Shown here one piece after another: positions 32,711-60,828 of a stretch of DNA of 64,000 bases; positions within the stretch are counted from its first letter, which is position 1; each line of letters begins with the position of its first letter. Origin of the DNA: Rhododendron vialii (Eukaryota; Streptophyta; Magnoliopsida; Ericales; Ericaceae); assembly GCF_030253575.1 (NCBI RefSeq), contig NC_080569.1, forward strand, positions 4,403,501-4,467,500, given 5' to 3'. The notes beneath the pieces were generated by a model, which did not search any database, was not told where the DNA came from, and saw only the letters and a program-made list of their open reading frames with translations. The position numbers were made by a program, and so were the translations under genes.

Positions 32711-32718
32711 TATATAAT
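32711..32718 (+). promoter_or_regulatory. TATA box of kinase gene A
   Basis: TATATAAT lies 43-50 bp before the ATG at 32761. The equivalent position carries TATAATA in B (42662) and TATAAAA in C and D, so the core promoter is conserved across the array. Confidence 0.65.
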
Positions 32719-32760
32719 ACAGACAAAGGCCCCAATCATTTGTCCCAACAAAAACCAGCT

Positions 32761-35700
32761 ATGACTACAATTAAAGAGCCCTGCGTTCTTCTTTTCTTCA
32801 CTCTCTTTCTCTCACTACATCCATTTGAAGTCAAATCATCACCAACAACACAAGCAGAAGCTCTTGTCAACTGGAAGAACACCCTTGCCGCATCTCCTTC
32901 TTCTCTAAATTCTTGGTCTCTAAGCAATCTCAAAAACCTCTGCAACTGGACAGGAATCCTCTGCACCACCACCGGTTCTGTCTCCAGCATAAACCTCACC
33001 AATGCAAACCTCACCGGAACCATCGAAAGCTTTGACTTCACTCCCTTCCCAAACCTCACCGTTTTCAACCTCAACAACAACAATCTCAATGGGTCAATTC
33101 CACCCAATATTGGTAACCTCTCAAGTCTCCAATTCTTGGACTTGAGCAACAACAATTTTGTCGAAGTGATTCCATTGGAGATCGGATTGTTGTTGGAGCT
33201 AGAGTACATTAGTCTCTTCAACAACAATCTAAATGGGTCAGTCCCATATCAAGTTACCAATCTCCACAAGGTATGGCACTTAGACTTTGGAGCAAACTAT
33301 TTAGAAACACCTGATTGGTCCAATTTTTCGGGTATGGAGTCTCTGTCATACCTTAGCTTTTATCTGAATGAATTCACTTTGGGATTCCCTGAGTTTATAC
33401 CCAAATGTTTGAGTTTGAAGTACCTTGACTTGTCGTTCAACCTATTCAATGGCCAAATCCCTGATTCGGTTTTCTCCCAGTTGGGAAATCTTGAATATCT
33501 CAATCTTACTGCTAATTCATTTTCAGGGCCACTGTCATTGAACTTTTCCAAGCTTTCTATGCTCAAAGCTCTTCGCTTGGGAAATAACCAATTCAGTGGT
33601 CAAATTCCTGAGTTCATTGGTTCACTTTCTGGTCTTCAAATCATTGAACTTTATAACAACTCATTTGAAGGCCCAATTCCATCTTCCATGGGCCAACTTG
33701 GGAATCTTCAACTTCTTGATCTTAGAATGAATGCCTTGAATTCCTCAATCCCTTCGGAGCTTGGTTCTTGTACTAACCTTACCACCTTAGCTCTGGCCTT
33801 GAATTCGCTTACAGGAGATTTGCCTTTGTCCTTGTCAAACCTGAAGAGGATATCTAACTTGGCTTTATCCGATAACTTCTTTTTCAGTGAAATTTCACCT
33901 TATCTCTTTGCCAACTGGACCCAGCTGATAAATTTGTACCTTGAAAACAATTCCTTCACTGGTAACATTTCATCTGAAATCGGGCAATTGACACAGCTCA
34001 ATTACCTTTTCCTTTACAGCAACCAGTTCTCTGGCTCTATCCCACTGGAGATTGGAGACTTGACAGATTTGATCGAATTAGACCTTTCAATAAATCAACT
34101 CTCAGGTCCAATTCCTCATAGTATTGGGAATCTCAAAAATCTCACACTGTTACAGCTCTTTTCCAACAATCTCAGTGGATCTATTCCTCCAGAGATTGGA
34201 AATCTAATTTCATTGCAAGTTCTTAGTCTTGACACCAACGAACTGACTGGCGAATTGCCGAACAACCTCTCCAGCCTTAATAATCTTCAGACACTCTCCT
34301 TGTATGCCAACAAACTATCAGGTACTATCCCTAGTGACTTGGGGAAGAATAGTCCTTCTTTGGCCAATGTTAGCTTTTCTGAGAACAACTTTTCGGGTGA
34401 GCTACCACCCGGGTTATGTAACGGTCTTGCTCTCCAGGAATTGACAGTAAACAGAAACAGTTTCAATGGGTCGTTGCCCAAATGTTTGAAGAACTGCTCT
34501 GAACTAACTAGAGTCCGTCTTGAATGGAACCAGTTTTCTGGAAACATTTCTGAGGCGTTTGGAGTCTACCCGAATCTTTACTTCATCACTCTGATGGGTA
34601 ATCTATTTTCTGGTGGGCTCTCTCCACAGTGGGGAGAATGTACAAATCTCAGAAACATGCAGTTTGATGGGAATAGAATTTCTGGTGAAATACCGGTTCA
34701 GTTAGGCAACTTGACCCGGTTAGGCATCCTTAGCCTGAGCTCGAACGAATTGACCGGTGAAATTCCCCCCGAGTTGGGGAATTTAAGCGGCCTGCTCAAC
34801 CTCAATCTGAGCAACAACCGTTTAACGGGAGAGATTCCGCCGACTTTGGCTTACTTAACAGACCTTCAGCTTCTTGATTTATCGAAAAACGAGTTGAATG
34901 GGACTGTTCCAAATGAGATTGGAAGCTGTCAGAGCTTATTGAGCTTGAACTTGGGAAGTAACTATTTATCTGGAAGTATCCCAACAGAGCTAGGCAACTT
35001 GATTGCACTGCAGTATCTTTTGGACCTCAGTAGCAATTCATTGTTAGGAACAATTCCCCCTACCCTGGGATATCTTATCTCATTGGAGAATCTCAATTTA
35101 TCACACAACAATCTCTCGGGTACTATTCCTTCGGCCTTAACCAGCATGGTTAGTTTACGGTCCATTGATTTCTCCCACAATGAGTTGTCCGGTCCGGTTC
35201 CCTCGGGTAAAATTTTCCAAAATGCATCGGGAGCTTACCTTGGAAATTCAGGATTGTGTGGAAATGTAGAAGGATTATCCCCTTGTAATGCAAATTCCAC
35301 AAGTGGGATGTCGAAGAGGTTCGACAAAAAGGTTCTGATTGGCGTCATTTTCCCTGTTATCGGCTTCTTAGTTTTGGTTGCTGTCATTGTTGGATGCCTC
35401 ATCCTTCGTAGGCCATCGAAGCAACATGATGAACAGATCGAAGCAACACTCATGTGGGAAAGAGAAGGAAAATTCACTTTTGGAGATATTGCAAAAGCCA
35501 CGGAGGACTTCAACGAGACGTACTGCATTGGGAAAGGAGGGTTCGGAACCGTTTACAAAGCGGTGTTGCCAATGGGTCAAGCAGTGGCAGTAAAAAGGCT
35601 CAATGTGACGGACTCAAATGACATTCCATTGTTGAATCGTTGGAGTTTTGAGAATGAGATTCGAACTCTAACAGAAGTTAGGCACCGAAATATCATCAAG

Positions 35701-36881
35701 CTCTATGGGTATTGTTCCATGAAAGGGTACTTGTACTTGGTTTATGAGTACATAGAGAGGGGCAGCTTGGGAAAAGTACTGTACAGTGATGATGGGGCAG
35801 TAGAACTAGGGTGGGGTACAAGGTTGAGCATTGTTCAAGGAGTGGCTCATGCTCTTGCTTATTTGCACCATGATTGCTCTCCTCCTATAGTCCATCGGGA
35901 CGTATCAATGAATAACATTCTGCTCGAATCAGAGCTAAAGCCACGACTATCAGATTTTGGAACCGCGAGATTGTTGAGCCCTGATTCCTCTAACTGGACC
36001 TCGGTTGCTGGTCCTTACGGATATATGGCTCCAGGTAAGCTTAAATCGAGTTTATGCTTCTTGTCTTTAGTCTGTTCAATTTAATATCTAGGCAGCACAA
36101 ACATTTTTGTTTTTTTGCACTGATTTGGACTGAATGAATGCAGATAAATATGCACATCTCTATTTATAAAACTGCCATGCAATTGTTCATTTATAATGCT
36201 TTGTTTGGATCTATGATATCCGCAGTGGGAAAAAAAAGATGGGGGTAGATTTGATGTGTATGACTAACTTTTGGCATATCTTCTTTTTTACCTCCATAAT
36301 TATAATTCTGTTTACAAATTCAAGATCCAAACGCAACATACCTTCTATGAGCAAGAGTTTTTTTAATTCTCGTTTTGGTTTCCTTTGCACTATCAAATTG
36401 CACAGAGCTGCAGTCGGCACTTGCTATGGTAGTCATAGAGAAATGCGGTGTTTATACTTTTCCTGAGCACAAAATTTTGATTAATATGTTGGTTTCACTT
36501 GGTTATTGTGCAGAGCTGGCACTTTCTATGCGAGTCACAGAGAAATGCGATGTTTACAGCTTTGGAGTGGTTGCTCTGGAAGTACTGATGGGAAGACATC
36601 CAACCGAACTCTTGACTACTCTATCATCATCATTGTCATCTAATTACGAGGACTTATTATTGAAGGACGTGCTAGACCAACGCCTCCCCCCTCCGTCAAG
36701 TGAAATGACAGCGGGAGTGGTGTTTGTTGTTTCGGTGGCCTTAGCATGCACACAAGCAGCGCCAGAGACGCGGCCCACTATGCAATTCGTCGCACAGGAA
36801 CTTTCTGCACGAACTCGGGCATGCTTGTCTGAACCATTGGACACTCTAAAAATGAGCAAGATACCAAGCCCTCGGAAGTAG
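32761..36881 (+). CDS. LRR receptor-like kinase, MIK2-like, copy A
   Basis: Cell-surface receptor kinase resembling MDIS1-interacting receptor-like kinase 2 (peptide sensing, immunity and pollen-tube guidance in Arabidopsis). Two exons, 32761-36034 and 36514-36881, 1,213 codons. In order: signal peptide (about 1-25), LRR N-terminal cap ([10 protein letters not shown]), roughly 30 LRRs of ~24 residues to about 830, transmembrane helix about 856-881, kinase about 910-1190. Kinase motifs present: [34 protein letters not shown], and APE completed across the intron. Odd points: the P+1 loop reads AGPYGY where copies B-D have AGSYGY (Pro codon 36013-36015; RD receptor kinases need Ser/Thr there), and about a dozen juxtamembrane residues present in the other copies are missing before WEREGKFTF. 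An open frame extends upstream of 32761, but the chosen ATG matches the other copies and gives a signal peptide. Catalysis is probably impaired; ligand binding could persist. Confidence 0.88.
36402..36467 (+). other. Decayed duplicate of exon 2 start in the intron of A
   Basis: GAGCTGCAGTCGGCACTTGC and GAGAAATGCGGTGTTTATAC mirror the start of the real exon 2 at 36514 (GAGCTGGCACTTTC, GAGAAATGCGATGTTTACAG), complete with a CACAG acceptor-like end before it. The same relic sits at the same place in copies B, C and D. Confidence 0.75.
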
Positions 36882-37235
36882 AGTGACAACTTCAAAAGGA
36901 AATATACACGATGTTAGTTGGAAAATGAGGGTGTTAGGAAACATTCTTAGGAATGGTCTTTTTCAAGGGACTCTGTATATTCGCCCCCCTTCCCTACACA
37001 AAAATTATGGCTCCGTCTCTGATCTTTTCAAATATGTGCAATGTAGTTGAATAACAGTGGTTTGTCTAATAGTTGTTAGACATATTTTGTCTTGGGTGAA
37101 ATATTATTTCCTGTTCTTGCTCAGAGAGAAGTTTGCATTCTGGGTTTTGCAATTTAAAGCCGAGTTTGACCACGTGGGCGTTTTGGTAGTTGACTCACAA
37201 ATTGATCCCAACCAATTTCTCAATAAGAGAAAATT
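36882..37235. other. 3' flank of kinase A
   Basis: Starts with a ~70 bp block shared with the 3' flanks of the other copies (GAAAATGAGGGTGTTAGG, ACATTCTTAGG) and then diverges. No gene seen. Confidence 0.5.
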
Positions 37236-37901: not shown

Positions 37902-39085
37902 AAAGTGAAGTTGATCGAGCAGCTATACACAATTGATCGAATTACATTGGTTTGATATGCTGACACTTTCAAAACCACATGACTCGACCATTGACTATTG
38001 ATATTCAATCAAGTTAATTTTGATATTAAGAGTTCAGAATTTTCTAATATTAGATTCATTCACATCCTTCTTTTAAATTTAATTGGTAATCGTCGTCATG
38101 CGGTTAGGAGACATTTGGGAGACAGATAAGTGATCTCGAAAGCTTTTTTTCCACGAGGAAAAGGATCCTTTCCGGTCCATGAAAATGGACTAGACCATCC
38201 AGTTAGCCAGTTTATAGGCTTTTTTTCGGATTTGTCTTGATGATCCAAACCGTTCACACTTCAAAACTTGTCGCCAATGTCAATCACGTCGAAAACCAGG
38301 TTGATTGGATACCGGTTGATGAAATTTCCAAATGCATTTGTCTTGAGATAAATAGGTTAAATGAATTCTGATTCGGTGTTATAATCTTATTATGCTGTAA
38401 TATTGTCCGATCTACTTGAATTTTGGTGTGACTAATGCACTCGAAAAAGCTCTAAAATACGAACAGCTTGAAATTGAATCATCAAAGTATGCCTTAAGGG
38501 TGACCCGCTAACAGGCCAACTGGAGGGTCTAATCAATTTTCATTGACACAAACCAAGAATATTTTAGTTTTGAAAGTGTGATTACTATGCACAAACATAG
38601 CCGCGACAAATTACTGTTGGCTGCAGTGAATTACTCTTGGCTGCTAAGTTTTGAAAACGTGATTGCTATGCACGATGCTCTTGTGTTTTACATGTCTCTT
38701 GGCCGTGAAGAATTACTTTTGGGCACAAATAATTACACTTGGCCGCACCGAATTACTCTTGGCGGCAAAGTTTAGAATTACTCTTGGCCGTAAAGAATTA
38801 CTCTTGGCCGCAACGAATTACTCTTGGCTATGAGTAATTCTTTGCGGGCCACAACAAATTACTTTTGGCCACGAAGAACTACTTATGGCCGCAAATAATT
38901 ACACGAGGAAAAATGTCAATTTTGGACTTGAGTGGCCTAATAAGCTAAGTGGAGCCGCCTCACCTTGTATGACTCCACTCAACCAATGGCTTCACAAACT
39001 TCCAATCTCGTTTATTTCCTTAGTTTAGAGTTATATTAATCAATTAGTTTTCACACCAAAGATGTTGTGAAGCAACAGGGAATTA
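37902..39085. repeat. Segmental duplicate of the A-upstream region
   Basis: Blocks such as CAGCTATACACAATTG, GAGACAGATAA, TTGTCTTGAGATAAATAGG and CAAACTTCCAATCTCG match 31642-32440 in the same order. The copy here lacks the left arm of the hairpin seen at 31673 and carries an extra ~345 bp (about 38560-38905) made mostly of a minisatellite. Confidence 0.8.
38605..38912. repeat. ~21 bp minisatellite (GAATTACTCTTGGCCGC)
   Basis: About a dozen degenerate units of GAATTACTCTTGGCCGCAA, best conserved between 38745 and 38835. It is absent from the homologous region upstream of A, so it arose or was inserted after the duplication. Confidence 0.8.
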
Positions 39086-39442
39086 TCCTTTTTTATGGCT
39101 TCCGGAATTATCAGAAAATATTAATATGAGAAAAATAATTTCCACACGAAAGATGCTTATGCAGTTGACAGGGAATGACAACTTTGTTTATTGAAATACA
39201 AGAGTCAACTCTTGGAGAATCACAAATGGAGTGGAGTGCAGTTGATACCTCCTTTATACTCCCATGCACATGAGCAAGGTTCGATTCCCGTAAGCACACA
39301 TCCCCCTCCCAAAGTCCCCTACTCTAAACCGTAAGCACACATCCCCCTCTCTAAGTCCCCTACTCTAGAGTAGATTAGGATTAATAAATAGCAAAAAAAA
39401 AAAAAAACTCTCGGAGAACCGAGAAGTTTTTGGGTGTCGAAA

Positions 39443-40560: not shown

Positions 40561-42593
40561 TGTTTACACCCATTTTTGGCCAAAAATCAGGAAATGGATT
40601 TACGGGTTAAAAGGTAGCCTCGAGGGTCGAGGCCCTAGCCTTGAAAGACCTTACGACCAGTTGCCCACGAATTATGGCCGGTTATTAAGAAATGATGGGC
40701 CTTCCATATAGGCCTAAATCAGTCAAAGGCCTAAGGCTTGAATCAGTCCACCAGGCCTGAGTATTTCGTCCAGGCCTAACCCAAATTCCTAGAAGTAACG
40801 AAGGCCTAAGAAATGGGCCCAAATTGGTAGAAGCCTTGGTTTTCTCACCAGGCTTGGGCTCAGAAGGCTTACATTGGGCAAAGGCCCATGATTTACCAAC
40901 AAGTTTAGGCCCAATTGATGAAAGGCCCACTGCTTTAAGAGCATCATTAAAGTCTTTAAGGAGCAATTAGGGGGCCTTAAGCTGCTCACAAGTAGCTCAA
41001 AAGGCCTTAAGCTGCTCACAAGCAGCTCACAATGAGTTCAAAGGCCTTAAGCTGCTCACAAGCAGCTCACAAGTAGCTTAAAGGCCTTAAGCTGCTCACA
41101 AGCGGCTCAAAGGCCTAGAATGTTCTTGTTTGGCAGATCTAGGTAAGCTGCTTACAAGCAGCTCAAGATCTGAGTCTTTACTATCCTTTAGCATGAAGCA
41201 AGGCTTGGGACACGTGGCAACCATGTATGGAGACATCCCAAGCAGCTCACAAGCAGCTTAGGCCTGGACAAGCAGCTCAAAGGCCTATATCTAACATCAT
41301 ATAAGCTGCTCACAAGCAGCTCAACCAAGCCTGCGTTTTTGGCCTTGGTGGGCCCAAATATCCCTTTTTTATAAACATCCATGCTCATAAGCAGCTTAAA
41401 GGCCTCAAGCTGCTCACAAGCAGCTCAAAGGCCTAGAATATTCTTGCTAGACAGATCTGGGTAAGCTGCTCACAAGCAGCTCAAGGTCTGAACTGGTGGG
41501 ACCCCATTCTTCAGCATGAAGCAAGGCCAGAGACAGGTGGCGCACATGCAGCCCTTGGAGCTGTTGGTGAATGATTCATGCAGACCTAAGCAAGCTGCTC
41601 ACAAGCAGCTCATCCAGGTCTGGTTAATCCTTTGTTTCTGGATCCTTCTTCCGTGAAAGATGAACCTCAGAGGATTTAAGGGCCCACAAGGGATGCAAGG
41701 ACCAATAAAATGGTGGGAAGGCCTGAAGAAGCCTTGGTCTTCAGCATTGGTGGGCCCAAAAGACGTCCAGTCAAGCAGTAGCTGCTCACAAGCAGCTCAA
41801 AAGCCTGGATGCTGAAGTTCCTTTTACTCTTTTACAAAGTTTTATGCAGAAAAGAAGGGCTTTTCAGGCCTTTACCATTTCCCGGGAGTAAAGGGCAAGT
41901 TTTTATCAAAGAATAGCCTCTCATTGGAGCATTTTGAAGCAGCTCAAAAGGGACACTTGGCAGCCATGCATGAAGGCCTGTGGAAGCAGCTTGAACAGCT
42001 CAAGACCTGGAACATCTGCCTATAAATACCAGAGTTGAAGGCTTTGGCAAAGGTCCCCGACCATCAAGCCCACGGCTTATGCATATTTATTTTTCCTTTA
42101 TCTTTTATCTTTAGGTCCACGACCATCAAAGCCCATGGCTTATCCAAATTTCATTTCATTTATCTTTTAACTATTTTTATCTTTCGGTCCCCGACCAAAC
42201 AAGCCCACGGCTTATCGTTCAATTACCTTTACTTTCTAAAATAGTTTGTACTCAATCTAGCCAAGCCTAGATTTTATTTCATTTCCTTGTAATCAGATTT
42301 TGTTAAACCGTTAATAAAGTCCATTTATTTCTGTTTTAGGCCTTGCTCTACCTTTCTGTCCATTTTTCACACAATTAGGAAATTTTAAGTCCTTAGCCCG
42401 CAAAGGCAAACCACGAACCTCCTCACGGTCTCCACCCTTAGGCCGTGCACTTTCGTTCGATTAGAAGTCAGATTGAGGCTTCCAGGCCTTGATACATACT
42501 TGGGCAGCAATCCTGCCCTGACACGCCCGCATCAGGCCTAGAACTGCACTACTCGCTGTTCCTAGTCCAATTGTTACTTTTCGAAAACAATCA
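40561..42593 (+). mobile_element. Solo LTR of a retrotransposon (2,033 bp) in the promoter of pseudogene B
   Basis: Begins TGTTTACACCC and ends AAAACAATCA (TG...CA), flanked on both sides by CATCA (40556-40560 and 42594-42598), a 5 bp target duplication. Inside are a TATA box (CTATAAATACC, about 42020) and an AATAAA near 42312, in the order expected for U3-R-U5. The sequences just outside (GGGTTTGCGCTTAATCAACT and the (CAT)n run) continue across the insertion, as in copies C and D. No internal coding region is present, so it is the solo-LTR product of recombination. Its large size suggests a Ty3/gypsy-type parent, but the family is not proven. Confidence 0.82.
40970..41830. repeat. Palindromic minisatellite GCTGCTCACAAGCAGCTC inside the solo LTR
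   Basis: More than a dozen copies of AAGCTGCTCACAAGCAGCTC, often followed by AAAGGCCT, at irregular spacing. Each unit is itself a near-palindrome (GCTGCTnnnnAGCAGC), so each can form a small hairpin. Confidence 0.88.
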
Positions 42594-42661
42594 CATCATC
42601 ATCTGTGGGTTTGTACTTAATCAACTCATACCATCATCATCATCATCTCCCTCTGCTCTGC

Positions 42662-42668
42662 TATAATA
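42662..42668 (+). promoter_or_regulatory. TATA box of pseudogene B
   Basis: TATAATA about 45 bp before the former ATG (42710), in the same context as in the other copies (CTCTGCTATAA). The solo LTR ends about 70 bp upstream, so upstream promoter elements have been pushed 2 kb away. Confidence 0.55.
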
Positions 42669-42709
42669 CAGAAAGAGTCCCCATTCTTTTGTCCCATCAA
42701 AAACCAGAT

Positions 42710-45700
42710 ATGACGACCATTAAATAACCCTGCATTCTTCTTTTCTTCGCTCTCTTTCTCTCACTACATCCATTTGAAGTCAAATCATCACCAACAACAC
42801 AAGCAGAAGCTCTAGTCAACTGGAAGAACACCCTTGCATCTCCTTCTTCTTTAAATTCTTGGTCTCTAAGCAATCTCAAAAACCTCTGCAACTGGACCGG
42901 AATCCTCTGTGCCACCACCAGATCTGTCTCCAGCATAAATCTAACCAATGCAAACCTCACTGGAACCATCGAAAGCTTTGACTTCGCTCCCTTCCCAAAC
43001 CTCACCATTTTCGACCTCAACAACAACAATCTCATTGGGTCAATTCCACCAAATATTGGTAACCTCTCAAGTCTCCAATTCTTGGACTTGAGCAACAACA
43101 ATTTTGTCGAAGTGATTCCGTTGGAGATTGGATTGTTGTCGGAGCTAGAGTACATTAGTCTCTTCAACAACGATCTAAATGGGTCAGTCCCATATCAAGT
43201 TACCAATCTCCAAAAGGTATGGCACTTAGACTTTGGAAAGAACTATTTAGAAACTCCAGATTGGTCCAATTTTTCGGGTATGGAGTCTCTGTCACACCTT
43301 AGCTTTTATCTGAATGAATTCACTTTGGGATTCCCTGAGTTTATACCCAAATGTTTTGAGTTTGAAGTACCTTGACTTGTCGTTCAACCTATTCGCTGGC
43401 CAAATCCCAGATTCAGTGTTCACCCGGTTGGGAAATCTTGAATATCTCAATCTTACTAGTAATTCATTTTCAGGGCCATTGTCATTGAACTTTTCCAAGC
43501 TTTCTATGCTCAAAGCTCTTCGCTTGGGAAATAACCAATTCAGTGGTCAAATTCCTGAGTTCATTGGTTCACTTTCTGGTCTTCAAATCATTGAACTTTA
43601 TAACAACTCATTTGAAGGCCCAATTCCTTCTTCCATAGGCCAACTTGGGAATCTTCAACATCTTGATCTTAGCATGAATGCCTTGAATTCCTCAATCCCT
43701 TCTGAGCTTGGTTCTTGTTCTAACCTAACCTACTTAGCTCTGGCCTTGAATTCACTTACCGGAGATTTACCTTTGGCCTTGTCAAACCTGAAGAGGATAT
43801 CTGAATTGGGTTTATCCGCTAACTTTTTCTCCGGTGAGATTTCACCTTGTTTCTTCACCAACTGGACCCAACTGATATCTTTGCAACTTCAAAACAATTC
43901 CTTCACTGGTAACATTTCATCTGAAATTGGGCAATTGACACAGCTCAATTACCTTTTCCTTTATGACAACCAATTCTATGGCTCTATCCCACTGGAGGTT
44001 GGAGACTTGACAGGTTTGACCGAATTAGACCTTTCAACGAATCAACTCTCTGGTCCAATTCCTCATAGTATTGGGAATCTCAAAAATCTCACACTGTTGC
44101 AGCTCTTTTCCAACAATCTCAGTGGACCGATTCCTCCAGAGATTGGAAATCTAATATCATTGCAAGTTCTTGATCTTAACACCAACGAACTGACTGGGGA
44201 ATTGCCTAACAACCTCTCCAGCCTCAATAATCTTCAGAGACTCTTCTTGTATGTTAACAAACTATCAGGTACCATCCCCAGTGACTTGGGGAAGAATAGT
44301 CCTTTGGCCAATGTTAGCTTTTCTGAGAACAACTTTTCGGGTGAGCTACCACCCGGGCTATGTAACGGTCTTGCTCTCCAGGAATTGACAATAAACGTAA
44401 ATGGTTTCAATGGGTCATTGCCCGAATGCTTGAAGAACTGCTCAGAACTAACTAGAGTCCGTCTTGAATGGAATCAGTTTTCTGGAAACATTTCTGAGGC
44501 GTTTGGAGTCTACCCGAATCTTTACTTCATCACTCTGATGGGTAATCTATTTTCAGGTGAGCTCTCTCCACAGTGGGGAGAATGTACCAATCTCACAAAC
44601 ATGCAGTTTGATGGGAATAGAATTTCTGGTGAAATACCGGTTCAGTTAGGCAACTTGACCAGTTAGGCATCCTAAGCCGGAGCTCGAACGAATTGACTGG
44701 TGAAATTCCCACTGAGTTGGGGAATTTAGGCCATCTGTTGAACCTCAATCTGAGCAACAACCATTTAACGGGAGAGATTCCTCCGAGTTTCGGTAACTTA
44801 ACAGACCTTCAGCTTCTTGATTTATCGAAAAACAAGTTGAATGGGACTGTTACAAATGAGCTTGGAAGCTGTGAGAGCTTATTGAGCTTGAACTTGGGAA
44901 GTAACTATTTATCTGGAAGTATCCCATCAGAGCTAGGCAACTTGATTGCACTGCAGTATCTTTTGGACCTCAGTAGCAATTCATTGTCAGGAACAATTCC
45001 CCCTAGCCTGGGATATCTTATCTCATTGGAGAATCTCAATTTATCACACAACAATCTCTCAGGTACTATTCCTTCGGCCTTAACCGGCATGGTTAGTTTA
45101 CGGTCAATTGATTTCTCCTACAATGAGTTGTCCGGTCCAATTCCCTCAGGTAACATTTTCCAAAACGCATCGGGAGCTTACCTTGGAAATTCAGGATTGT
45201 GTGGAAATGCAGAAGGATTATCCCCTTGTAATGCATATTCCACAAGTGGGACGTCAAAGAGGTTCGACAAAAAGGTTCTGATTGGCGTCATTGTCCCTGT
45301 TATCGGCGTCTTAGTTTTGGTTGCTGTCATTGTTGGATGCCTCATCCTTCGTAGGCCATCGAAGCAACGCGTCGAAAGCACCAAAATGGACGAAAGTTTT
45401 GAGTCACTCATTTGGGAAAGAGAAGGAAAATTCACTTTTGGAGATATTGCAAAAGCCACGGAGGACTTCAACGAGACATACTGCATTGGGGAAGGAGGGT
45501 TCGGAACCGTTTACAAAGCGGTGTTGCCAACGGGTCAACCAGTGGCAGTAAAAAGGCTCCATGTGACAGACTCAAATGACATTCCATTGGTGAATCGTCG
45601 GAGTTTCGAGAATGAGATTCGAACTCTAACAGAAGTTAGGCACCGGAATATCATCAAGCTCTATGGGTTTTGTTCCATGAAAGAGCACTTGTACTTGGTT

Positions 45701-46691
45701 TATGAGTACATAGAGAGGGGCAGCTTGGGAAAACTATTGTACAGTGATGATGGGGCAGTAGAACTAGGGCGAGGTACAAGGGTGAGGATTGTTCAAGGTG
45801 TGGCTCACGCTCTTGCTTACTTGCACCATGATTGCTCTCCTCCTATAGTCCACCGCGACGTATCTATGAATAACATTCTGCTCGAGTCACAGCTCGAGCC
45901 ACGACTATCAGATTTTGGAACTGCGCGATTGTTGAGCCCTGATTCGTCTAACTGGACCTCGGTTGCTGGTTCTTATGGGTACATGGCTCCAGGTAAGCTT
46001 AAGTCGAGTTTACGCATCTTTTCCTCAGTCTCTTCAATTTAATTTCTAGGCATCCCAAACTTGTTAGTTTTTTGTACTAATTTGGACTGAATGAATGCAC
46101 CTAAATATTCACATCTCTAGTCATAAAACTCTGTGTGTGTGTGTGTGTGTAATTATAATTCTATCTACAAATTCAAGATCCAAATGCAACATCCCCTTCT
46201 ATGAGCAAGAATATTTTTATTCTTGTTTAGGTTTCCTTTTCTCTAACAAATTGCACAAAGCTGCAGCTTGCACTTGCTATGCTAGTCATAGAGAAATATG
46301 ATGTCTATACTTTTATTGAGCAGAAAATTTTGATAAAATGTTGGTTTCGCTTGGTTGTTGTGCAGAGCTGGCACTTTCTATGCGAGCCACAGAGAAATGT
46401 GATGTTTACAGCTTCGGAGTGGTTGCCCTAGAAGTACTGATGGGAAGACATCCAGCAGAACTCTTGACTACTATATCATCATCATTGTCATCTAATTACG
46501 AGGACCTATTATTGAAGGACATGCTAGACCAACGTCTCCCCCCTCCGTCAGGCGAAATGGCAGAGGGAGTGGTGTTTGTAGTTTCGGTGGCCTTAGCATG
46601 CACACAAGCAGCGCCAGAGACACGGCCCACTATGCGATTCGTCACACAGGAACTTTTAGCACGAACTCAGGCATCAGGCATGCTTGTCTGA
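42710..46691 (+). pseudogene. LRR receptor-like kinase pseudogene, copy B
   Basis: Aligns throughout with A, C and D: first part 42710-45992, second part 46366-46691, same intron position. It cannot make the full protein. Codon 6 is TAA (42725-42727) where A has a Glu codon. An extra T in the run at 43353-43356 shifts the frame in the LRR region, and a missing A near 44662 shifts it again and gives a stop at 44664-44666. A short duplication near 46670 alters the C-terminus (SGMLV). The kinase part is still open and keeps [25 protein letters not shown] and AGSYGYMAP, so decay is recent. The 5' half is A-like, but the LRR part near 44690-44800 ([16 protein letters not shown]-like) is C-like, which suggests a mosaic. 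A truncated product from a downstream start cannot be excluded. Confidence 0.88.
46255..46315 (+). other. Decayed duplicate of exon 2 start in the intron of B
   Basis: AAGCTGCAGCTTGCACTTGC and GAGAAATATGATGTCTATAC, the counterpart of the relic in A. A (GT)n run lies earlier in the same intron (46131-46150). Confidence 0.7.
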
Positions 46692-48127
46692 ACCATTGGA
46701 CACTATAAAAATGAGCAAGATAGCAAGCCCTCAGAAGTAGGAGGGACAACTTGAAAAGGAAATGTACATCATGTTAGGTGGAAAATGAGGGTGTTAGGTA
46801 ACATTCTTAGGGATTTGCAGTCGGATTACTGTCCTTCCACAGTCCAATGACTTCCCTTCCAAACCTGTAATTGATCCATTGGAATCAAATTTCCACCGGA
46901 TTGATTTGGCTTGATCATGAGCAACTTATTATAGCCTTGATAACAAATGTGTACTCTGCAACCGTTAAATCCCACGGCTTTCGGCTTCCTCTGAACATCC
47001 AGACCGACTTTCTACCAATTGAATTTAACGGCTAAAAATATTAAACATTATCATTTTTTTCTAGATTTAGCTCCAAATGTTAGCCAATGGCTCTGTGGAT
47101 CTTGAAGGGAGGAAAATGAATATCAAACTCCAAATAATATATCAAACAGACATAACAAACCCAAGTTAGGGAGCATGAAAATGCATATTTACGCACCTAT
47201 CGATAATGCAAAATGGGAACTCCCAAGCAGCTGCACTTGTTTGGAGTCTTTGGACAGAAGGAAGTGGCATTTTCTCTCTCTCCACTTCTACACTCCTTTT
47301 TGGTTTCCTTCACTTAAACCACTAAACATCAACTCATTAAACGTAGGTTGTGGAAATCGGAGCACTAATCCTAAAGCTGCTCCTCGCAAAATGCAAACCA
47401 TTATCGTGTGATTCCACCTCTACACTCCTTGTTGGATTCCCTCATTTATATTTATGGAGGTCCAATAATTCGTGGCCTAAAAGATTTATCTTTGGATCGG
47501 ACCTAATTTATTTTGTTTTGTTATTTTTCATTTACTCCGACTTTGTATGATGAGTGCAGACAATATCAAAGAAAAATAAAACTATACAGTAGTAAAGAAA
47601 AAGTAAAAAAATTTAGTGCATTTTCTGAACTCATGGGGTTCGATTGAACCCCTGAAACCTAACCGCAGCTGCCCCTGCTACACACTCTTGGCACATGTTC
47701 TCCAAGTGCTTTCTTTGCAGTTGTTGACGATATTTGGGTCAGTTTTGCTCTCTGTTTTTGGTGAGGTCTTTCCTCTTTGGTTGTAATCTCTTTGTAAATC
47801 CGTTTGTAAAACTTCGTTGATAGTGAAATCGACGTACCTTTAATTTAGAGGGAACCAAGTAAAGATTGATATGTGTCTTGTTTCATTGTGAAATCGGCGT
47901 ACCTTTAATTTAGAGGGAACATAGTAAAGATTGATATGTGTCTCGTTTCATTTGCGCAATTGATATTTATTCGCTTCATTGTTATTATCACTATATTTCT
48001 TCCATGATTTGAACTAGTGGGAAGTCAGCCTATTTTTCCAACACTCCCGTATGATAAACGTTTCCACAACAAAGTGGGTTTGCGCTTAATCAACTCATAC
48101 CATCATCATCATCTCCCTCTTCTCTGC
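46692..48127. other. Spacer between B and C
   Basis: No gene. After a short shared 3' flank the sequence to about 47170 is unique. From 47200 it is homologous to the regions upstream of B and D. A 65 bp tandem duplication (47823-47887 and 47888-47951, starting GTGAAATCG and ending TTTCATT) lies about 230-360 bp before the ATG of C. Confidence 0.6.
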
Positions 48128-48134
48128 TATAAAA
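48128..48134 (+). promoter_or_regulatory. TATA box of kinase gene C
   Basis: TATAAAA 48-54 bp before ATG 48182, in the same CTCTGCTATAAAAC context as in D. Confidence 0.7.
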
Positions 48135-48181
48135 CAAAGTCCCATTCTCTTTTTCCCATGAAAACTTCACCAAAACCAGCT

Positions 48182-51100
48182 ATGACTACAATTCAAAAAC
48201 CTTGCATTCTTGTTTCCTTCACTCTCTTTCTCTTACTGCATCCATTTGGAGCCAAACTATCATCAACAACACAAGCAGAATCTCTGCTTAAATGGAAGAA
48301 CAGCCTTTCATGTCCATCTTCTCTAAATTCTTGGTCTCTGAACAATCTCAAAAACCTCTGCAACTGGACTGGAATCATCTGCACCACCACCGGTTCTGTC
48401 TCCAGCATAAACCTCGCCAATACAAGCATATACGGAACCCTCAAAACCTTTGACTTCACTTCCTTCCCAAATCTCACTGTTTTTAACCTCAGCAAAAACA
48501 GTCTCTTTGGGTCCATTCCACCCAATATTGGTAACCTCTCAAGTCTCCAACTCCTGGACTTGAGCGACAACTTTTTTGTCGAATCGATTCCACCGGAGAT
48601 TGGAATGTTGTCGGAGCTCCAGTACATTAGTCTCTTCGACAACATACTAAATGGATCAGTTCCATATCAAGTTACCAACCTACAAAACATACGGTACTTA
48701 GACTTCAGATCGAACCAGTTAGAAACACCAGATTGGTCCAAATTTACAGGTATGGAATCTTTGTCATACCTTAGCTTTTCAATCAATAAATTCACAATGG
48801 GATTCCCTGAGTTCATTCCAAAATGTTTGAACTTGAAGTACCTTGACTTGTCGTCAAACCTATTCACTGGCCAAATCCCTGAATCAGTTTTCACCCATTT
48901 GGGAAATCTTGAATCTCTCAATCTTAGTACTAATTCATTTTCAGGGCCATTGTCATTGAACTTTTCCAAGCTTTCTATGCTTAAAGCTCTTCGCTTGGGA
49001 AATAACCAATTCACTGGTCAAATTCCTGAGATCATTGGTTCAATTTCTGGTCTTCAAATCATTGAACTTAATTTTAACTCATTTGAAGGCCAAATTCCTT
49101 CTTCCATAGGCCAACTTGGGAATCTTCAACATCTTGATCTTAGCATGAATGGCTTGAAATCCACAATCCCTCCTGAGCTTGGTTCTTGTTCTAACCTCAC
49201 ATACTTAGCTCTGGCCTTGAATTCACTTACCGGAGAATTGCCTTTGGCCTTGTCAAACCTGAAGAGGATATCTGAATTGGGTTTATCCGCTAACCTTTTC
49301 TCCGGTGAAATTTCGCCTTATTTCTTCACCAGCTGGACCCAACTGATATCTTTGCAGCTTCAAAACAATTCCTTCACTGGTAACATTTCATCTGAAATCG
49401 GGCAATTGACACAGCTCAATTACCTTTTCCTTTACAAGAACCAGTTCTCTGGCTCTATCCCACTGGAGATCGGAGGCTTGAAAGGTTTGATCAAATTAGA
49501 CCTTTCAAGAAATAAACTCTTTGGTCCAATTCCTCATAGTATTAGGAATCTCAAAGATCTCACTGTGTTGCAGCTCTATTCGAACAATCTCAGTGGACCA
49601 ATTCCTCCAGAGATTAGAAATCTAATTTCATTAGAAATTCTTGATCTTAACACCAACCAATTGACTGGGGAATTGCCTAATAACCTCTCAAGACTTAATA
49701 AACTTCAGAGACTCTCCTTGTTTGCTAACAAACTATCCAGTACCATGCCCAATGACTTGGGAAAGAATAGTCCTTCTTTGGTCAATGTTAGCTTTTCTGA
49801 GAACAACTTTTTGGGTGAGCTACCACCCGGGTTATGCAACGGTCTTGCTCTCCAGGAATTGACCGCTTACAAAAATGGTTTCAATGGGTCGTTGCCCGAA
49901 TGCTTGAAGAAATGCTCTGGACTAACTAGAATCCGTCTTGAAGGGAACCAGTTTTCTGGAAACATTTCTGAGGCATTTGGAGTCTACCCGAATCTTTACA
50001 TCATCACTCTGATGGGTAATCTATTTTCGGGTGAGCTCTCCCCACAATGGGGAGAATGTACCAAACTCACAAACGTGCAGTTTGATGGGAATAGAATTTC
50101 TGGTGAAATACCGGTTCAGTTGGGAAAATTGACCAGATTAGGCATCCTAAGCCGGAGCTCGAACGAATTGACTGGTGAAATTCCCACTGAGTTGGGGAAT
50201 TTAGGCCATCTGTTGAACCTCAATCTGAGCAACAACCGTTTAACGGGAGAGATTCCTCCAAGTTTGGGTCAATTAACAGACCTTCAGGTTCTTGATTTAT
50301 CGAAAAACAGGTTCAATGGGACTGTTCCAAATGAGCTTGGAAGCTGTGAGAGATTATTGAGCTTGAACTTGGGAAATAACTCTTTATCTGGAAGTATCCC
50401 ATCAGAGCTAGGCAAATTGTTTTATTTGCAGATACTTTTGAACCTAAGTAGCAATTCAATAGCTGGAACTATTCCAGCTAGCTTGGGAGCTCTTACCTTA
50501 CTGGAGAATCTCAATTTATCAAACAATAATCTCTCAGGAACCATTCCTTCAGCCTTTACCGGCATGGTTAGTTTACAGTCCATTGATTTCTCCTACAATG
50601 AGTTGTCCGGTCCTATTCCCGTGGGTAACAATTTCCAAAATGCAAAGGGAGCATACCTTGGAAATTCAGGATTGTGTGGGAATGCAGAAGGATTATCCCC
50701 CTGTAATTCAAATTCCACAAGTGGGAAGTCAAAGAGGTTCGACAAAAAGGTTCTGATTGGCGTCATTGTCCCGGTTATCACCATCTTAGTTTTGGTTGCC
50801 CTCATTGTTGGATTCCTCATCTTTCTTAGGCCGTCGAAGCAACACGATGAACAGTCCGAAAGTACCAAAATGGAAGAAAGTTTCGAGTCACTCATTTGGG
50901 AAAGAGAAGGGAAATTCACTTTTGGAGATATTGCAAAAGCCACGGAGGACTTCAACGAGACGTACTGCATTGGGAAAGGAGGGTTCGGAACCGTTTACAA
51001 AGCGGTGTTGCCAATGGGTCAACCAGTGGCAGTAAAAAGGCTCAATGCGACGGACTCAAATGACATTCCATTGGTGAATCGTCGGAGTTTTGAGAATGAG

Positions 51101-52274
51101 ATTCGAACTCTAACAGAAGTTAGGCACCGGAATATCATCAAGCTCTATGGGTTTTGTTCCATGAAAGGGCACTTGTACTTGGTTTACGAGTACATAGAGA
51201 GGGGCAGCTTGGGAAAAGTATTGTACAGTGATGATGGAGCAGTAGAACTAGGGTGGGGTACAAGGGTGAGGATTATTCAAGGAGTGGCTCATGCTCTTGC
51301 TTACTTGCACCATGATTGCTCTCCTCCTATAGTCCACCGTGACGTATCGATGAATGACATTCTTCTCGAGTCAGAGCTACAGCCACGACTATCAGATTTT
51401 GGAACCGCCAGATTGTTGAACCCTGATTCATCTAACTGGACCTCGGTTGCTGGTTCTTATGGGTACATGGCTCCAGGTAAGCTTAAGTCGAGTTTACGCA
51501 TCTTTTCCTTAATCTCTAATTTTTTTATCTAGGCAGCACGAACTCGTTAGTTTCTTGCACTGATTTGGACTGAATGAATGCAGATAAATATGCCCATCTC
51601 TAGTCATAAAACTGCCATGCAATTGTTCATTTCTAAGGTTTTGTTTAGATCTAAGATATCCGGAAAAAAAAAGAAGAAAAGATGGGGGTAAATTTGATGT
51701 GTATGACTTGCGTTTGCCATATCTTCTTTTTTACCTCCACAATTATAATTCTGTCTACAAATTCAATATCCAAACGCAAAATACCTTTCCATGAGCAAGA
51801 ATTTTTTTTATTCTCGTTTAGGTTTCCTTTGCTCTATCAAATTGCATAGAGCTGCAGCTGGCACTTGCTATGCTGGTCATAGAGAAATGCGATGTCTATA
51901 CTTTGATTCAGCTGAAAATTTTGATTAATATGTTGGTTTCACTTGGTTGTTGTTAAGAGCTGGCACTTTCTATGCGAGTCACAGAGAAATGCGATGTTTA
52001 CAGCTTCGGGGTGGTTGCTCTAGAAGTACTGATGGGAAGACATCCAACAGAACTCTTGACTACTCTATCAGCATCGTTGTCATCTGATTATGAGGACTTA
52101 TTATTGAAGGGCGTGATAGACCAACGCCTCCCCCCTCCGTCAGGCGAAATGGCTGTGGGAGTGGTGTTTGTAGTTTCGGTGGCCTTAGCATGCACACAAG
52201 CAGCGCCAGAGACACGGCCCACTATGCGATTCGTTGCACAGGAACTTTCTGCACGAACTCAGGCATGCTTGTAA
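48182..52274 (+). CDS. LRR receptor-like kinase, MIK2-like, copy C
   Basis: Same architecture as A: signal peptide, LRR cap ([10 protein letters not shown]), about 30 LRRs, one transmembrane helix, kinase. Exons 48182-51476 and 51958-52274, 1,203 codons, open throughout. Two features suggest altered function. The catalytic loop is HRDVSMND: the invariant Asn of HRDxxxxN, which helps bind Mg2+, is Asp (codon 51356-51358). The intron ends in TTAAG, not CAG or TAG as in A, B and D, a weak acceptor that may lower correct splicing; if it fails, the C-lobe of the kinase is lost. The LRR region has LSRSS where A and D have LSLSS, shared with B. An in-frame ATG at 48158 would add eight residues before the start chosen by homology. 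A solo LTR lies ~90 bp past the stop. Confidence 0.87.
51846..51902 (+). other. Decayed duplicate of exon 2 start in the intron of C
   Basis: GAGCTGCAGCTGGCACTTGC and GAGAAATGCGATGTCTATAC, about 110 bp before the real exon 2. It is preceded by TTGCATAG, itself a possible acceptor. Confidence 0.72.

Positions 52275-54736: not shown

Positions 54737-54737
<1 letters not shown>

Positions 54738-54795
<58 letters not shown>
54738..54795. repeat. CT microsatellite (~28 units)
   Basis: A pure CT run of nearly 58 bases upstream of D. The matching place upstream of C has only a short CTCTCTCTCC, so it has expanded here. Confidence 0.95.
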
Positions 54796-54798
<3 letters not shown>

Positions 54799-55578
54799 CT
54801 AATCCTAAAGCTGCTCCTCGCAAAGTGAAAACCATTATCGTGTGATTCCACTTCTACGCTCCTTGTTGGTTTTTCTCCTTATTTTCCGGTCTTGCTATTG
54901 TCAACCCACTGGGGCTGACGATAAACACATTAAAACAAGGAAAACACGTATTCTTGTGCACTTTTTACACCCTTTAATATATATTCACATACTTAATATT
55001 ATCAGCCCAGTGGGCTAATTTTAGAATTTTTCATATGTTATGGAGGTCCTATAATTTGTGACCCAAAAGATTTATTTTTGGATTGGGCCTAATTTATATT
55101 GTTTTGTTTGAGCTATAATGATCTACTCACTCACAAACTTAAGTGATTTTCATTTACTCCGACTTTGTATGATGAGTGCAGACAATATCAAAGAAAAATC
55201 AAACTATAAAAAAAAAATTATAAAATTTTACTGCATTTCCCAAGCCCATGGGGTTCGCTTGAACCCCTGAAACCTTACCACAGCCGCCCCTACTACACAC
55301 TCTTGGCACATGTTCTGTTATAGCTTCCCTTGGAAGCCAAAAGAAGACTTTCTAGGCTATTGGGAGACCTATCATCAGATGTTGGAAAATGAAGAAAAAC
55401 GTGGAAAGGGAAAAGCTCTAAGTGCAACCATTTCTTTGCTCTAACCTCCGGCAAGTTGTTGACTATATTTGCGGCAGTTTTGCCCTCTGTTTCTGAGCAC
55501 CTTATTTCAGCTGCATCAAAGGGTTTGGTTCATCTTTTTTTTTTGGTGAGGTCTTTCCTATTCCGTTGTAATTTGTTA

Positions 55579-55884: not shown

Positions 55885-55989
55885 TAGAATATATGTTCGG
55901 GTGTTTGTGAGATTCTTATATCTCTTTGTAAATCTGTTTGTAAAACTTCGTTGATAGTGAAATCGGCACACCTTCAATTTAGGGGGCAT

Positions 55990-56430
55990 GGAGCATGGAT
56001 GTTAAAATCCTACGATACGGAATACGTATCTTACAATTCGTATCGTCTCCTTCCAAAATCGATAAGTATCCCACCCCGTATATTTTTTGTATAGAAATCC
56101 TACGATACTATGACATATCTTGCCATATAAAGAATTTAGAGAAAATCAAAACTCAAAGCTCAAATGGAAGAAAGAACATGTTTCGAACATGTGTTGCATG
56201 ACTCAGGCACCAGAAAGACTCACCGTGATGGACCTTACTTGGGAGACTTGAAATTTTTCATCCTAATAAAAACCAATTTTCCATATATGTCCAACAGTTT
56301 TTTAGATTGTAATTAAGTGTAACTATTATTTTATAGCATATTTGCATTTGTTAACGTATCATACGACACACGATACACGATACGTATCCCAATACGATCC
56401 ATAAAATGAAATAAACGTCGTTTCGAATGT
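55990..56430. mobile_element. Insert with CGATACG-rich inverted ends
   Basis: ATCCTACGATACGGAATACG on the left and CGATACGTATCCCAATACG on the right are roughly inverted, and the ~440 bp are missing upstream of C. It is probably a small DNA element. The exact ends and any target duplication are not resolved. Confidence 0.45.
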
Positions 56431-56665
56431 CGTTTGCGCAATTGATATTTTATTCGCTGAATTATTACTGTTATATTTCTTCCTCGTGATTTATACTAGT
56501 GGGAACTGGGAAGTTTCTTTGCAAAAAAAAAAATTACTAGTGGGAAGTCGGTCAATTTTTCCAACCCTCCATTCGAAAAACGTTTCCACAACAAAGTGGG
56601 TTTCCACTTAACCAACTCACACACCCATCATCATCATCATCTCCCTATGCTCTGCTCAGCTCTGC

Positions 56666-56672
56666 TATAAAA
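56666..56672 (+). promoter_or_regulatory. TATA box of kinase gene D
   Basis: TATAAAA 48-54 bp before ATG 56720. A short upstream ATG (ATG AGA ACT TAA, 56696) lies in the leader; in C the matching ATG is in frame with the protein. Confidence 0.7.
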
Positions 56673-56719
56673 CAGAGTCCCATTCTTTTTGTCCCATGAG
56701 AACTTAACCAAAACCAGCA

Positions 56720-59700
56720 ATGGCTACAATTCAAAAGCCATGCATTATTGTTTCCTTCACTCTCTTTCTCTTACTACATCCATTTGAAGCCAAACCATCG
56801 TGGACAACACAAGCGCAATCTCTGGTCAAATGGAAGACCACCCTTTCATCTCCACCTTCTCTAAATTCTTGGTCTCTAAACAATCTCAAAAACCTCTGCA
56901 ACTGGACTGGAATCCTCTGCACCAGTAACGGTTCTGTCTCCAGTATAAACCTCGCCAATTCAAACGTCAACGGAACCCTCGAAAACTTTGACTTCACCTC
57001 CTTCCCAAATCTCGCTGTTTTCAACCTCAGCAACAACAGTCTCTTTGGGTCAATTCCACCCAATATTGGTAACCTCTCTAGTCTCCAACTCCTGGACTTG
57101 AGCAACAACTTTTTTGTCGAAGTGATTCCATTGGAGATCGGCTTGTTGTCGGAGCTAGAGTACATTAGTCTCTTCAACAACGATCTAAATGGGAGAGTCC
57201 CATATCAAGTTACCAATCTCCAAAAGGTATGGCACTTGGACTTTGGAGCGAACTATTTAGAAACACCAGATTGGTCCAAATTTACAGGTATGGAATCTTT
57301 GTCATACCTTAGCTTTTATTTCAATGACTTCACTTCGGGATTCCCAGAGTTCATTCCAAAATGTTTGAACTTGAAGTACCTTGACTTGTCGTCGAACCTA
57401 TTCACAGCCCAAATCCCTGAACCAATTTTCACCCATTTGAAAAATCTTGAATCTCTCAATCTTTATTCTAATTCATTTTCAGGACCATTGTCATTGAACT
57501 TTTCCCATCTTTCTATGCTTAAATCTCTTCGCTTGGGAAATAACCAATTCAGTGGTCAAATTACTGAGGTCATTGGTTCACTTTCCGGTCTTCAAATCAT
57601 TGAACTTAATAACAACTCATTTGAAGGCCCAATTCCTTCTTCCATAGGCCAACTTGGGAATCTTCAACGTCTTGATCTTAGCATGAATGGCTTGAATTCC
57701 TCAATCCCTTCTGAGCTTGGTTCTTGTTCTAACCTCACCTACTTAGCTCTGGCCTTGAATTCGCTTACCGGAGATTTACCTTTGGCCTTGTCAAACCTGA
57801 AGAGGATATCTGAATTGGGTTTATCCGATAACTTTTTCTCCGGTGAGATTTCGCCTTATTTCTTCACCAACTGGACCCTACTGATATCTTTGCAGCTTCA
57901 AAACAATTCCTTCACTGGTAACATTTCATCTAAAATCGGGCAATTGACACAGCTCAATTACCTTTTCCTTTACGACAACCAGTTCTCTGGCTCTATCCCA
58001 CTGGAGATTGGAGACTTGAGAGGTTTGATCAAATTAGACCTTTCAGGAAATCAACTCTTGGGTCCAATTCCTCATAGTATTGGGAATCTCAAAAATCTCA
58101 CTGTGTTGCAGCTCATTTCCAACAATCTCAGTGGACCAATTCCTCCAGAGATTGGAAATCTAATTTCATTAGAAATTCTTGATCTTAACACCAACCAATT
58201 GACTGGGCAATTTCCTAACAACCTCTCTAGACTAAATAATCTTCAGAGACTCTCCTTGTTTGCTAACAAACTATCCGGGACTATCCCCAAGGACTTGGGG
58301 AAGAATTGTCGTTCTTTGCTCAATGTTAGCATTTCTGAGAACAACTTTTCGGGTGAGCTACCACCTGGGTTATGCAACCGTCTTGCTCTCCAGGAATTGA
58401 CAGCACACAAAAACGGTTTCAGTGGGCCGTTGCCCGAGTGCTTGAAGAAGTGCTCTGGACTAACTAGAGTCCGTCTTGAAGGGAACCAGTTTTCTGGAAA
58501 CATTTCCGAGGCATTTGGAGTCTACCCGAATCTTTACTTCATCACTCTGATGGGTAATCTATTTTCGGGTGAGCTCTCCCCACAATGGGGAGAATGTACC
58601 AAACTCACAAACGTGCAGTTTGATGGGAATAGAATTTCTGGTGAAATACCGGTTCAGTTAGGAAAATTGACCAGATTAGGCATCCTAAGCCTGAGCTCGA
58701 ACGAATTGACTGGTGAAATTCCCACTGAGTTGGGGAATTTAGGCCATCTGTTGAACCTCAATCTGAGCAACAACCGTTTAACGGGAGAGATTCCTCCGAG
58801 TTTGGGTCACTTAACAGACCTTCAGCATCTTGATTTGTCGAAAAACAAGTTGAATGGGACTGTTCCAAATGAGCTTGGAAGCTGTGAGAGATTATTGAGC
58901 TTGAACTTGGGAAATAACTCTTTATCAGGAAGTATCCCAGCAGAGCTAGGCAAATTGTCTTCATTGCAGATACTTTTGAACCTAAGTAGCAATTCAATAT
59001 CAGGAACTATTCCGGCTAGCTTGGGAGCTCTTACCTCACTGGAGAATCTCAATTTATCAAACAACAATCTCTCAGGGACCATTCCTTCGGCCTTAACCGG
59101 CATGATTAGTTTACAGTCCATTGATTTCTCCTACAATGAGTTGTCCGGCCCTATTCCCTTGGGTAGCAATTTCCAAAACGCAAAGGGAGCATACCTTGGA
59201 AATTCAGGATTGTGTGGAAATGCAGAAGGATTATCCCCTTGTAATGCAACATCAACAAGTGGGAGGAAGTCAAAGAGGTTCGACAAAAAGGTTCTGATTG
59301 GCGTCATTGTCCCGGTTATCGGCATCTTAGTTTTGGTTTCTGTCATTGTTGGATGCCTCATCTTTCTTAGGGGATCGAAGCAACATGATGAACAGACCGA
59401 AAGTACCAAAATGGACCAAAGTTTCGACTCACTCATTTGGGAAAGAGACGGGAAATTCACTTTCGGAGATATTGCAAAAGCCACGGAGGACTTCAACGAG
59501 ACGTATTGCATTGGGAAAGGAGGGTTCGGAACCGTTTACAAAGCGGTGTTGCCAATGGGTCAACCAGTGGCAGTAAAAAGGCTCAATGTGACAGACTCAA
59601 ATGACATTCCATTGGTGAATCGTCAGAGTTTTGAGAATGAGATTCGAACTCTAACAGAAGTTAGGCACCGGAATATCATCAAGCTTTACGGGTTCTGTTC

Positions 59701-60828
59701 CATGAAAGGGCACTTGTACTTGGTTTATGAATACATAGAGAGAGGCAGCTTGGGAAAACTATTGTACAGTGATGATGGGGCAGTAGATCTAGGGTGGGGT
59801 ACAAGGGTGAGCATTGTTCAAGGAGTGGCTCATGCTCTTGCTTACTTGCACCATGATTGCTCTCCTCCTATAGTCCACCGCGACGTATCGATGGATAACA
59901 TTCTGCTCGTGTCAGAGCTCGAGCCACGACTATCAGATTTTGGAACTGCGAGATTGTTGAGCCCTGATTCGTCTAACTGGACCTCGGTTGCTGGTTCTTA
60001 TGGGTACATGGCTCCAGGTAAGCTTAAGTCGAGTTTATGCATCTTTTCCTTTGTCTCTTCCGATTTAGTATCTAGGCAGCACAAACTTGTTAGTTTTTGC
60101 ACTGATTTGGACTGAATGAATGCAGCTAAATATGCACATCTCTAGTCGTAAAACTGCCATGCAATTGTTCATTTCTAAGGCTTTGTCTAGATCTAAGATT
60201 TCCGCAGTGGGAAAAAAAAGAAGATGGGGGGTAGATTTGATGTGTATGACTAACTTTTGCCATATCTTCTTTTTTACCTCCATAATTATAATATTCTGTC
60301 TACAAATTCAAGATCCAAACGCAACATACCCATCTATGAGCAAAAAATATATATATTCTTGCTTAGGTTTCCTTTGCTCCATCAAATTGCACAGAGCTGC
60401 AACTGGCACTTGCTATGCTGGTCATAGAGAAATGTGATGTCTATACTTAAATTGAGCAGAAAATTTTGATTAATATGTTGGTTTCACTTGATTGTTGTGT
60501 AGAGCTGGCACTTTCTATGCGAGCCACAGAGAAATGCGATGTTTACAGCTTCGGGGTGGTTGCTCTGGAAGTACTGATGGGAAGACATCCAGCAGAACTC
60601 CTGACTACTCTATCATCATCATTGTCATCTAATTACGAGGACTTATTATTGAAGGACGTGATAGACCAACGCCTCCCCCCTCCGTCAGGGGAAATGGCTG
60701 AGGGAGTGGTGTTTGTAGTTTCGGTGGCCTTAGCATGCACGCAAGCAGCGCCAGAGACACGACCCACTATGCGATTCGTCGCACAGGAACTTTCTGCACG
60801 AACTCAGGCATGCTTGTCTGAAGTCTGA
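56720..60828 (+). CDS. LRR receptor-like kinase, MIK2-like, copy D (only copy with all canonical kinase motifs)
   Basis: Exons 56720-60017 and 60503-60828, GT-AG with a TAG acceptor, 1,207 codons. Signal peptide, LRR cap ([10 protein letters not shown]), about 30 LRRs, transmembrane helix about residues 856-882, kinase about 915-1195. Motifs are complete: [27 protein letters not shown] with the catalytic Asn kept, [24 protein letters not shown] and the C-lobe Arg in PETRPTM. It is therefore the best candidate in the array for an active RD-type receptor kinase. The N-terminus and most of the LRRs are C-like, but about 57117-57265 is closer to A/B ([20 protein letters not shown]), which suggests gene conversion. 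By analogy with MIK2 it may sense secreted peptides at the plasma membrane; the ligand is unknown. Confidence 0.92.
60391..60450 (+). other. Decayed duplicate of exon 2 start in the intron of D
   Basis: GAGCTGCAACTGGCACTTGC and GAGAAATGTGATGTCTATAC, preceded by TTGCACAG. Same relative place as in A, B and C. Confidence 0.72.

Follow-up and report, generated by a model that had tools for sequence, protein, structure and literature searches.

Four copies of an LRR receptor kinase, named A to D, stand in tandem on the + strand of the window, i.e., the whole analysed stretch of 64,000 nucleotides, on contig C13 of a 532.6-Mb genome of 13 contigs. Our favoured reading, held with slightly better than even confidence, is a young array under birth and death and inter-copy exchange, in which D signals, B is dead and A and C have recently become impaired in their kinases. 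The array would have grown from one LRR receptor kinase, MIK2-like in its ectodomain, with D most likely the canonical signalling receptor. A and C would each have gained a single recent change at a conserved kinase position, Ser to Pro in the hinge of A and Asn to Asp in the metal site of C, phosphotransfer being most likely lowered; too little time would have passed since then for selection on the kinases to relax, and both receptors would be otherwise intact. Recency is judged here within the array only. On present evidence the array is ordinary and young, probably with two kinases of recently impaired function; recent wear or weakened signalling accounts for the data better than decoys of long standing.

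Gene structure and the loss of copy B

The copies and their exons are located as follows:
32761-36881, + strand: copy A, whole gene
32761..36034, + strand: copy A exon 1, with signal peptide, LRR ectodomain, putative membrane span and first kinase part
36514..36881, + strand: copy A exon 2, with the remaining kinase and the stop
42710-46691, + strand: copy B, whole, pseudogene
42710..45992, + strand: copy B exon 1, pseudogene
46366..46691, + strand: copy B exon 2, with 7 nt inserted close to its end
48182-52274, + strand: copy C, whole gene
48182..51476, + strand: copy C exon 1
51958..52274, + strand: copy C exon 2
56720-60828, + strand: copy D, whole gene
56720..60017, + strand: copy D exon 1
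60503..60828, + strand: copy D exon 2

One gene structure is common to A-D, two exons with a phase-1 intron splitting the APE motif after CCA-G. A Pfam scan confined to exon 1 of A, C and D and exon 2 of D found LRRNT_2, LRR_1/LRR_8 and Pkinase in the three first exons, all above cut-off, and PK_Tyr_Ser-Thr in D exon 2; A, C and D thus hold the N-terminal LRR cap, LRR array and kinase domain of an LRR receptor kinase. A hydrophobic stretch between ectodomain and kinase, read from the translations, is the putative membrane span. In the juxtamembrane region, A has 24 bases fewer than C and D (8 codons in two gaps, 35436-35447), B 9 bases fewer. The genome search scored the best candidates only; among the matches listed, the best-scoring one outside the array was 50 % identical, and none outside A-D exceeded 58 % identity, no further close copy being among them.

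The earlier note credited the copies with a shared promoter besides a shared intron position and architecture. The latter two are the same in A-D; the promoter claim needs correction, contiguous 5' homology extending over only about 95-185 bp. The proximal segments are:
32658..32760, + strand: proximal 5' segment common to the copies, in copy A (103 bp)
42605-42709, + strand: its equivalent in copy B
48013-48181, + strand: its equivalent in copy C
56536-56719, + strand: its equivalent in copy D

Contiguous homology begins about 95-105 bp upstream of the ATG in A and B and about 170-185 bp upstream between C and D. In a comparison that took in flank pieces of at least 120 bp only, C and D had in common a separate piece farther upstream (47445-47701 and 55030-55316, 77 % identity) and one downstream piece. 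The upstream flank of A (31640-32440) is repeated downstream of A (37905-39088) at about 75-78 % identity, as if a former upstream flank of B had been displaced by about 3.3 kb of inserted sequence. Two irregular short-repeat arrays lie between A and B (38587-38909 and 40955-41491), their spacings including 20 and 30-40 bases. Frames at 62598-63974 (- strand) and 15011-15706 (+ strand) resemble, judged by their translations only, RT/RNase H and gag pieces of copia-type retroelements.

B had been called a pseudogene, and so it is: exon 1 meets a stop at codon 6 and is further damaged by a 1-nt insertion near 43354 and a 1-nt deletion after 44662, both of which break the frame, and exon 2 carries the 7-nt insertion. 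B probably died recently.

Kinase positions changed in A and C

The two altered codons are:
36013..36015, + strand: Pro codon CCT in copy A, at the hinge (P+1 loop) Ser/Thr position
51356..51358, + strand: Asp codon GAC in copy C, at the metal-binding catalytic-loop Asn position

Both replacements were found as announced, with Ser in B, C and D at the first position and Asn in A, B and D at the second. Each amounts to one transition, and a single-base assembly error may lie behind them. Each occurs in a single copy while the remaining three agree, which supports the proposed independent origin. A and C retain the Gly loop, beta3 Lys, alphaC Glu, HRD, DFG, alphaF Asp and alphaI Arg, and APE is present in the spliced models of A, C and D. 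The residue table was obtained by tblastn, a regular-expression motif scan having missed several paralogs; its rows for C and B show APK, ascribed to the match running beyond the exon end, and spliced C reads APE. D has every canonical kinase residue checked. That D alone is fully canonical is correct among the three intact genes, but not for the array, since the kinase of pseudogene B, as read, likewise has canonical residues at the positions checked. The changes were also described as disabling; this effect we infer, as both copies still have beta3 Lys, HRD Asp and DFG Asp.

Pseudokinases are defined by the loss of at least one of these three residues (PMC4718504, PMC9403797), and A and C, having all of them, fall outside this definition. 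The catalytic-loop Asn is given as one of six conserved residues and as required for catalysis (PMC4718504); under a looser, six-residue definition C would count as a pseudokinase. The pseudokinase BIR2 has lost the same Asn, replaced there by Val and in C by Asp (PMC4718504). BIR2 differs in its occluded nucleotide site and in DSG for DFG (PMC4718504), whereas C keeps Gly loop, Lys, HRD and DFG. For the hinge residue, substitution by Ala or an acidic residue is reported to abolish kinase function in other plant receptor kinases (PMC5441908). In vitro autophosphorylation of HAESA S861A was strongly reduced, and about 40 % of the T1 plants were wildtype in appearance (PMC4718614).

Among 25 paralogous kinases (L014-L038) the catalytic-loop Asn is kept in all, and the hinge residue is Thr in 24 and Ser in one; these 25 are the paralogs returned as loci, some with stops, and further listed matches lie outside the count. 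The HRD Asp is lost in one of them (L025) and the DFG Asp in two (L025 and L030), so that losing a catalytic residue is nothing exceptional in the family. At these loci elsewhere in the genome, L025 reads HRN and NFG and L030 reads NFG. It seems improbable that the changes matter little, a Pro hinge and an Asp metal ligand being tolerated by two nearly normal kinases. The other canonical motifs are intact in A and C, Mg binding by an Asp is conceivable in principle, and the kinase of A evolved at the background rate (omega 0.32 versus 0.31). However, both positions are invariant in kind in the 25 paralogs, and Ser or Thr is reported at the hinge of more than 99 % of RD receptor kinases (PMC4718614).

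Genealogy and constraint of the two gene halves

The LRR and kinase halves of the array differ in history. Up to the juxtamembrane region, the grouping of A with B and of C with D is backed by 109 of 123 informative sites, from the kinase onward by only 4 of 19 (Fisher p=2.8e-9); this p value is somewhat flattering, because the boundary, set where the kinase domain begins, was chosen once 300-base bins had shown the switch. The stretch without this grouping is:
59456..60915, + strand (copy D coordinates): kinase part of exon 1, intron, exon 2 and 3' flank

Synonymous divergence in the ectodomain is 0.18-0.20 between the pairs and 0.12 within them; in the kinase it is 0.13-0.17 between and 0.13-0.16 within, and intron divergence is about equal in all pairs (0.11-0.15). 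The simplest reading, suggested by these values, is that the LRR halves split first and the kinase halves were homogenised later, by gene conversion or unequal crossing over, and that the changes of A and C, present in one copy each, came after this homogenisation. A literature search gave no paper uniting a receptor-like kinase tandem, gene conversion of kinase or LRR domains and purifying selection; for Rhododendron, none of the papers retrieved dealt with the array, judging by their titles.

dN/dS was analysed within the array only, on four sequences which appear to exchange segments. The codon model used the tree ((A,B),(C,D)), thereby forcing on the kinase a tree which its informative sites do not support. 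Over the array the kinase had an omega of 0.31 and the ectodomain one of 0.55 (p=0.016 for the difference), and pairwise counts over the six pairs gave 0.18-0.26 and 0.40-0.54, respectively. The earlier note expected constrained LRRs and a relaxed kinase if the copies were decoys; the opposite order was found. Neutral evolution throughout, its expectation for plain decay, was contradicted for the array as a whole by pairwise counts and branch models, a rejection at array level as single branches are not all separated from 1 (D ectodomain p=0.10, C kinase p=0.066). What remains after both tests is very recent decay, or kinases working in a weakened or non-catalytic form.

On the terminal branches, kinase omega was 0.32 in A (p=0.0024 versus 1), 0.43 in C (p=0.066) and 0.16 in D (p=0.0005), and in branch models none of the four terminal kinase branches differed from the rest of the tree. 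A and C taken jointly had a kinase omega of 0.37 (p=0.0009 versus 1), and the remaining branches did not differ from them (p=0.39). A profile grid excluded omega of 0.7 and above for the kinase of A; for C, values above 0.15 and below 1.2 were compatible, with 1.0 inside the 95 % limit. Ectodomain omega tested against 1 was 0.56 in A (p=0.016), 0.61 in C (p=0.034) and 0.64 in D. Unique kinase changes, nonsynonymous to synonymous, numbered 6:10 in A, 9:10 in B, 7:7 in C and 2:9 in D, small counts for single branches. Compared directly with the ectodomain changes, those in the kinase differed in A only at p=0.04 and not in C (p=0.37). Simple binomial tests yielded p=0.001 for A and p=0.03 for C, the latter stronger than the model; the likelihood values were relied on, because the Poisson figures leave transition bias aside and take the synonymous count as free of error.

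The terminal kinase branch of the dead copy B had an omega of 0.34-0.35 (p=0.020 versus 1), and its ectodomain had the lowest omega of all, 0.29 versus 0.60 for the rest (p=0.025; p=0.00007 versus 1), as the only terminal ectodomain branch differing from the rest of the tree. B may have exchanged some ectodomain segments with D, which is one possible reason; where A has many unique changes, B and D have few. Since a pseudogene appears as constrained as the other copies or more, averages over a branch largely reflect the period when the gene was still intact and are no proof of present function. Recent loss, as in B, could apply to A and C too: the measured constraint speaks against long-released kinases, not against recent loss. 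The constraint on the own branch of A implies that its change is either recent relative to the branch or tolerated.

Ligand-binding decoys, with ectodomains kept by selection and kinases released, thus appear very unlikely. The frames of A and C are open over more than 1,200 codons as the earlier note had it (1213 and 1203, with 1207 in D). That note took them to favour retained ectodomain function, but they speak no more for the ectodomain than for the kinase, because the kinase is the more constrained half and neutrality is rejected. Faster change at the predicted ligand-facing LRR positions would suit decoys, and for C kinase release is compatible with omega 0.43, next to an ectodomain that is separated from 1. 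A decoy reading found no support for the array, with kinase 0.31 versus ectodomain 0.55, nor for A, whose kinase differs from 1; a Leu-to-Arg change in the LRR core of C speaks against it as well.

The open frame of A together with its constrained kinase fits continued use and counts against impairment. A, perhaps also C, might be a working receptor with weak or no catalysis, e.g., one that activates a BAK1-type co-receptor allosterically, its fold being under selection; we regard this as possible but doubtful. Kinase-dead EFR is reported to signal still through activation of BAK1 (PMC11259431), HAESA with Ala for the hinge Ser partly complements (PMC4718614), and the branch of A itself shows a constrained kinase. 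The likeness to EFR would lie in receptor kinase signalling despite impaired catalysis, if A or C do so. EFR is a non-RD kinase, however, while all four copies are RD kinases reading HRD; a catalytic-Asp mutant of FLS2 showed a diminished response (PMC11259431), and the similar constraint on the branch of B deprives that of A of its force as proof of function.

Ectodomain and introns

Among solved ectodomains, GSO1 and MIK2 come closest and score equally: exon 1 of D matches the solved MIK2 ectodomain chains with an E of about 1e-145 (phmmer), GSO1 scoring about the same. The MIK2 alignment covers the N-terminal cap and the C-terminal half of the LRRs of D. MIK2-like serves here as a label for the array, drawn from this match and from general background, and a peptide ligand may be presumed. 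In Arabidopsis, MIK2 is the LRR receptor kinase for SCOOP peptides; PMC11331138 gives D246, N268, S292, H294 and H316 as its SCOOP pocket residues and describes MIK2 and SCOOPs as found only in Brassicales.

Predicted ligand-facing positions, defined as five per repeat in 28 repeats found by motif, exceeded the remaining ectodomain in dN by a factor of 1.4-2.9, and did so in all six pairs. Their omega was 0.92-1.72 on local synonymous differences (5-11 per pair) and 0.69-0.92 against the ectodomain-wide synonymous rate. Positive selection at these positions was not accepted, faster change being all that the ectodomain-wide values support; it would fit diverging ligand surfaces or lower constraint.

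Tyrosine-kinase catalytic loops carry an Arg, and A differs from them in a catalytic loop HRDVSMNN without it. Such an Arg is mentioned in PMC4718504, and tyrosine kinases have a conserved Pro at the exact position changed in A (PMC4718614); the comparison is limited to hinge Pro and catalytic loop. Only with great reserve may A be viewed as a functioning RD kinase with a tyrosine-kinase hinge Pro, altered in specificity or signalling free of catalysis, and with an ectodomain diversifying at ligand-facing positions. If true, the tandem array would contain in A a naturally occurring switch made by one residue, with D left as ancestral control.

Tandem receptor-kinase arrays are a source of new plant receptors. 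The present one offers a natural set of close copies, canonical D, A with the hinge Pro, C with the metal-site Asp and dead B, which can be used to ask how much catalysis such a receptor needs.

Of the three intact copies, C is probably the likeliest to be failing and further toward decay, on account of an Arg in the LRR core and an AAG splice acceptor. The Arg replaces Leu at a core position of LRR 23 and is also present in B; no other LRR-core departures were found in A, B and C at five positions in each of the 28 repeats, which were defined by motif on D, so that D passes by construction. The intron of C ends in TTAAG, those of A and B in TGCAG and that of D in TGTAG, AAG being the weaker acceptor. 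In all four introns the beginning of exon 2 recurs as an exon-like repeat, with 34-39 of 41-45 aligned bases identical:
36406-36460: intronic exon-like repeat, copy A
46259-46307: intronic exon-like repeat, copy B
51850-51898: intronic exon-like repeat, copy C
60395-60443: intronic exon-like repeat, copy D

If the acceptor of C fails, the repeat just upstream would lead into a stop. The repeats of C and D both meet a stop, that of B is out of frame, and that of A reads open directly into exon 2.
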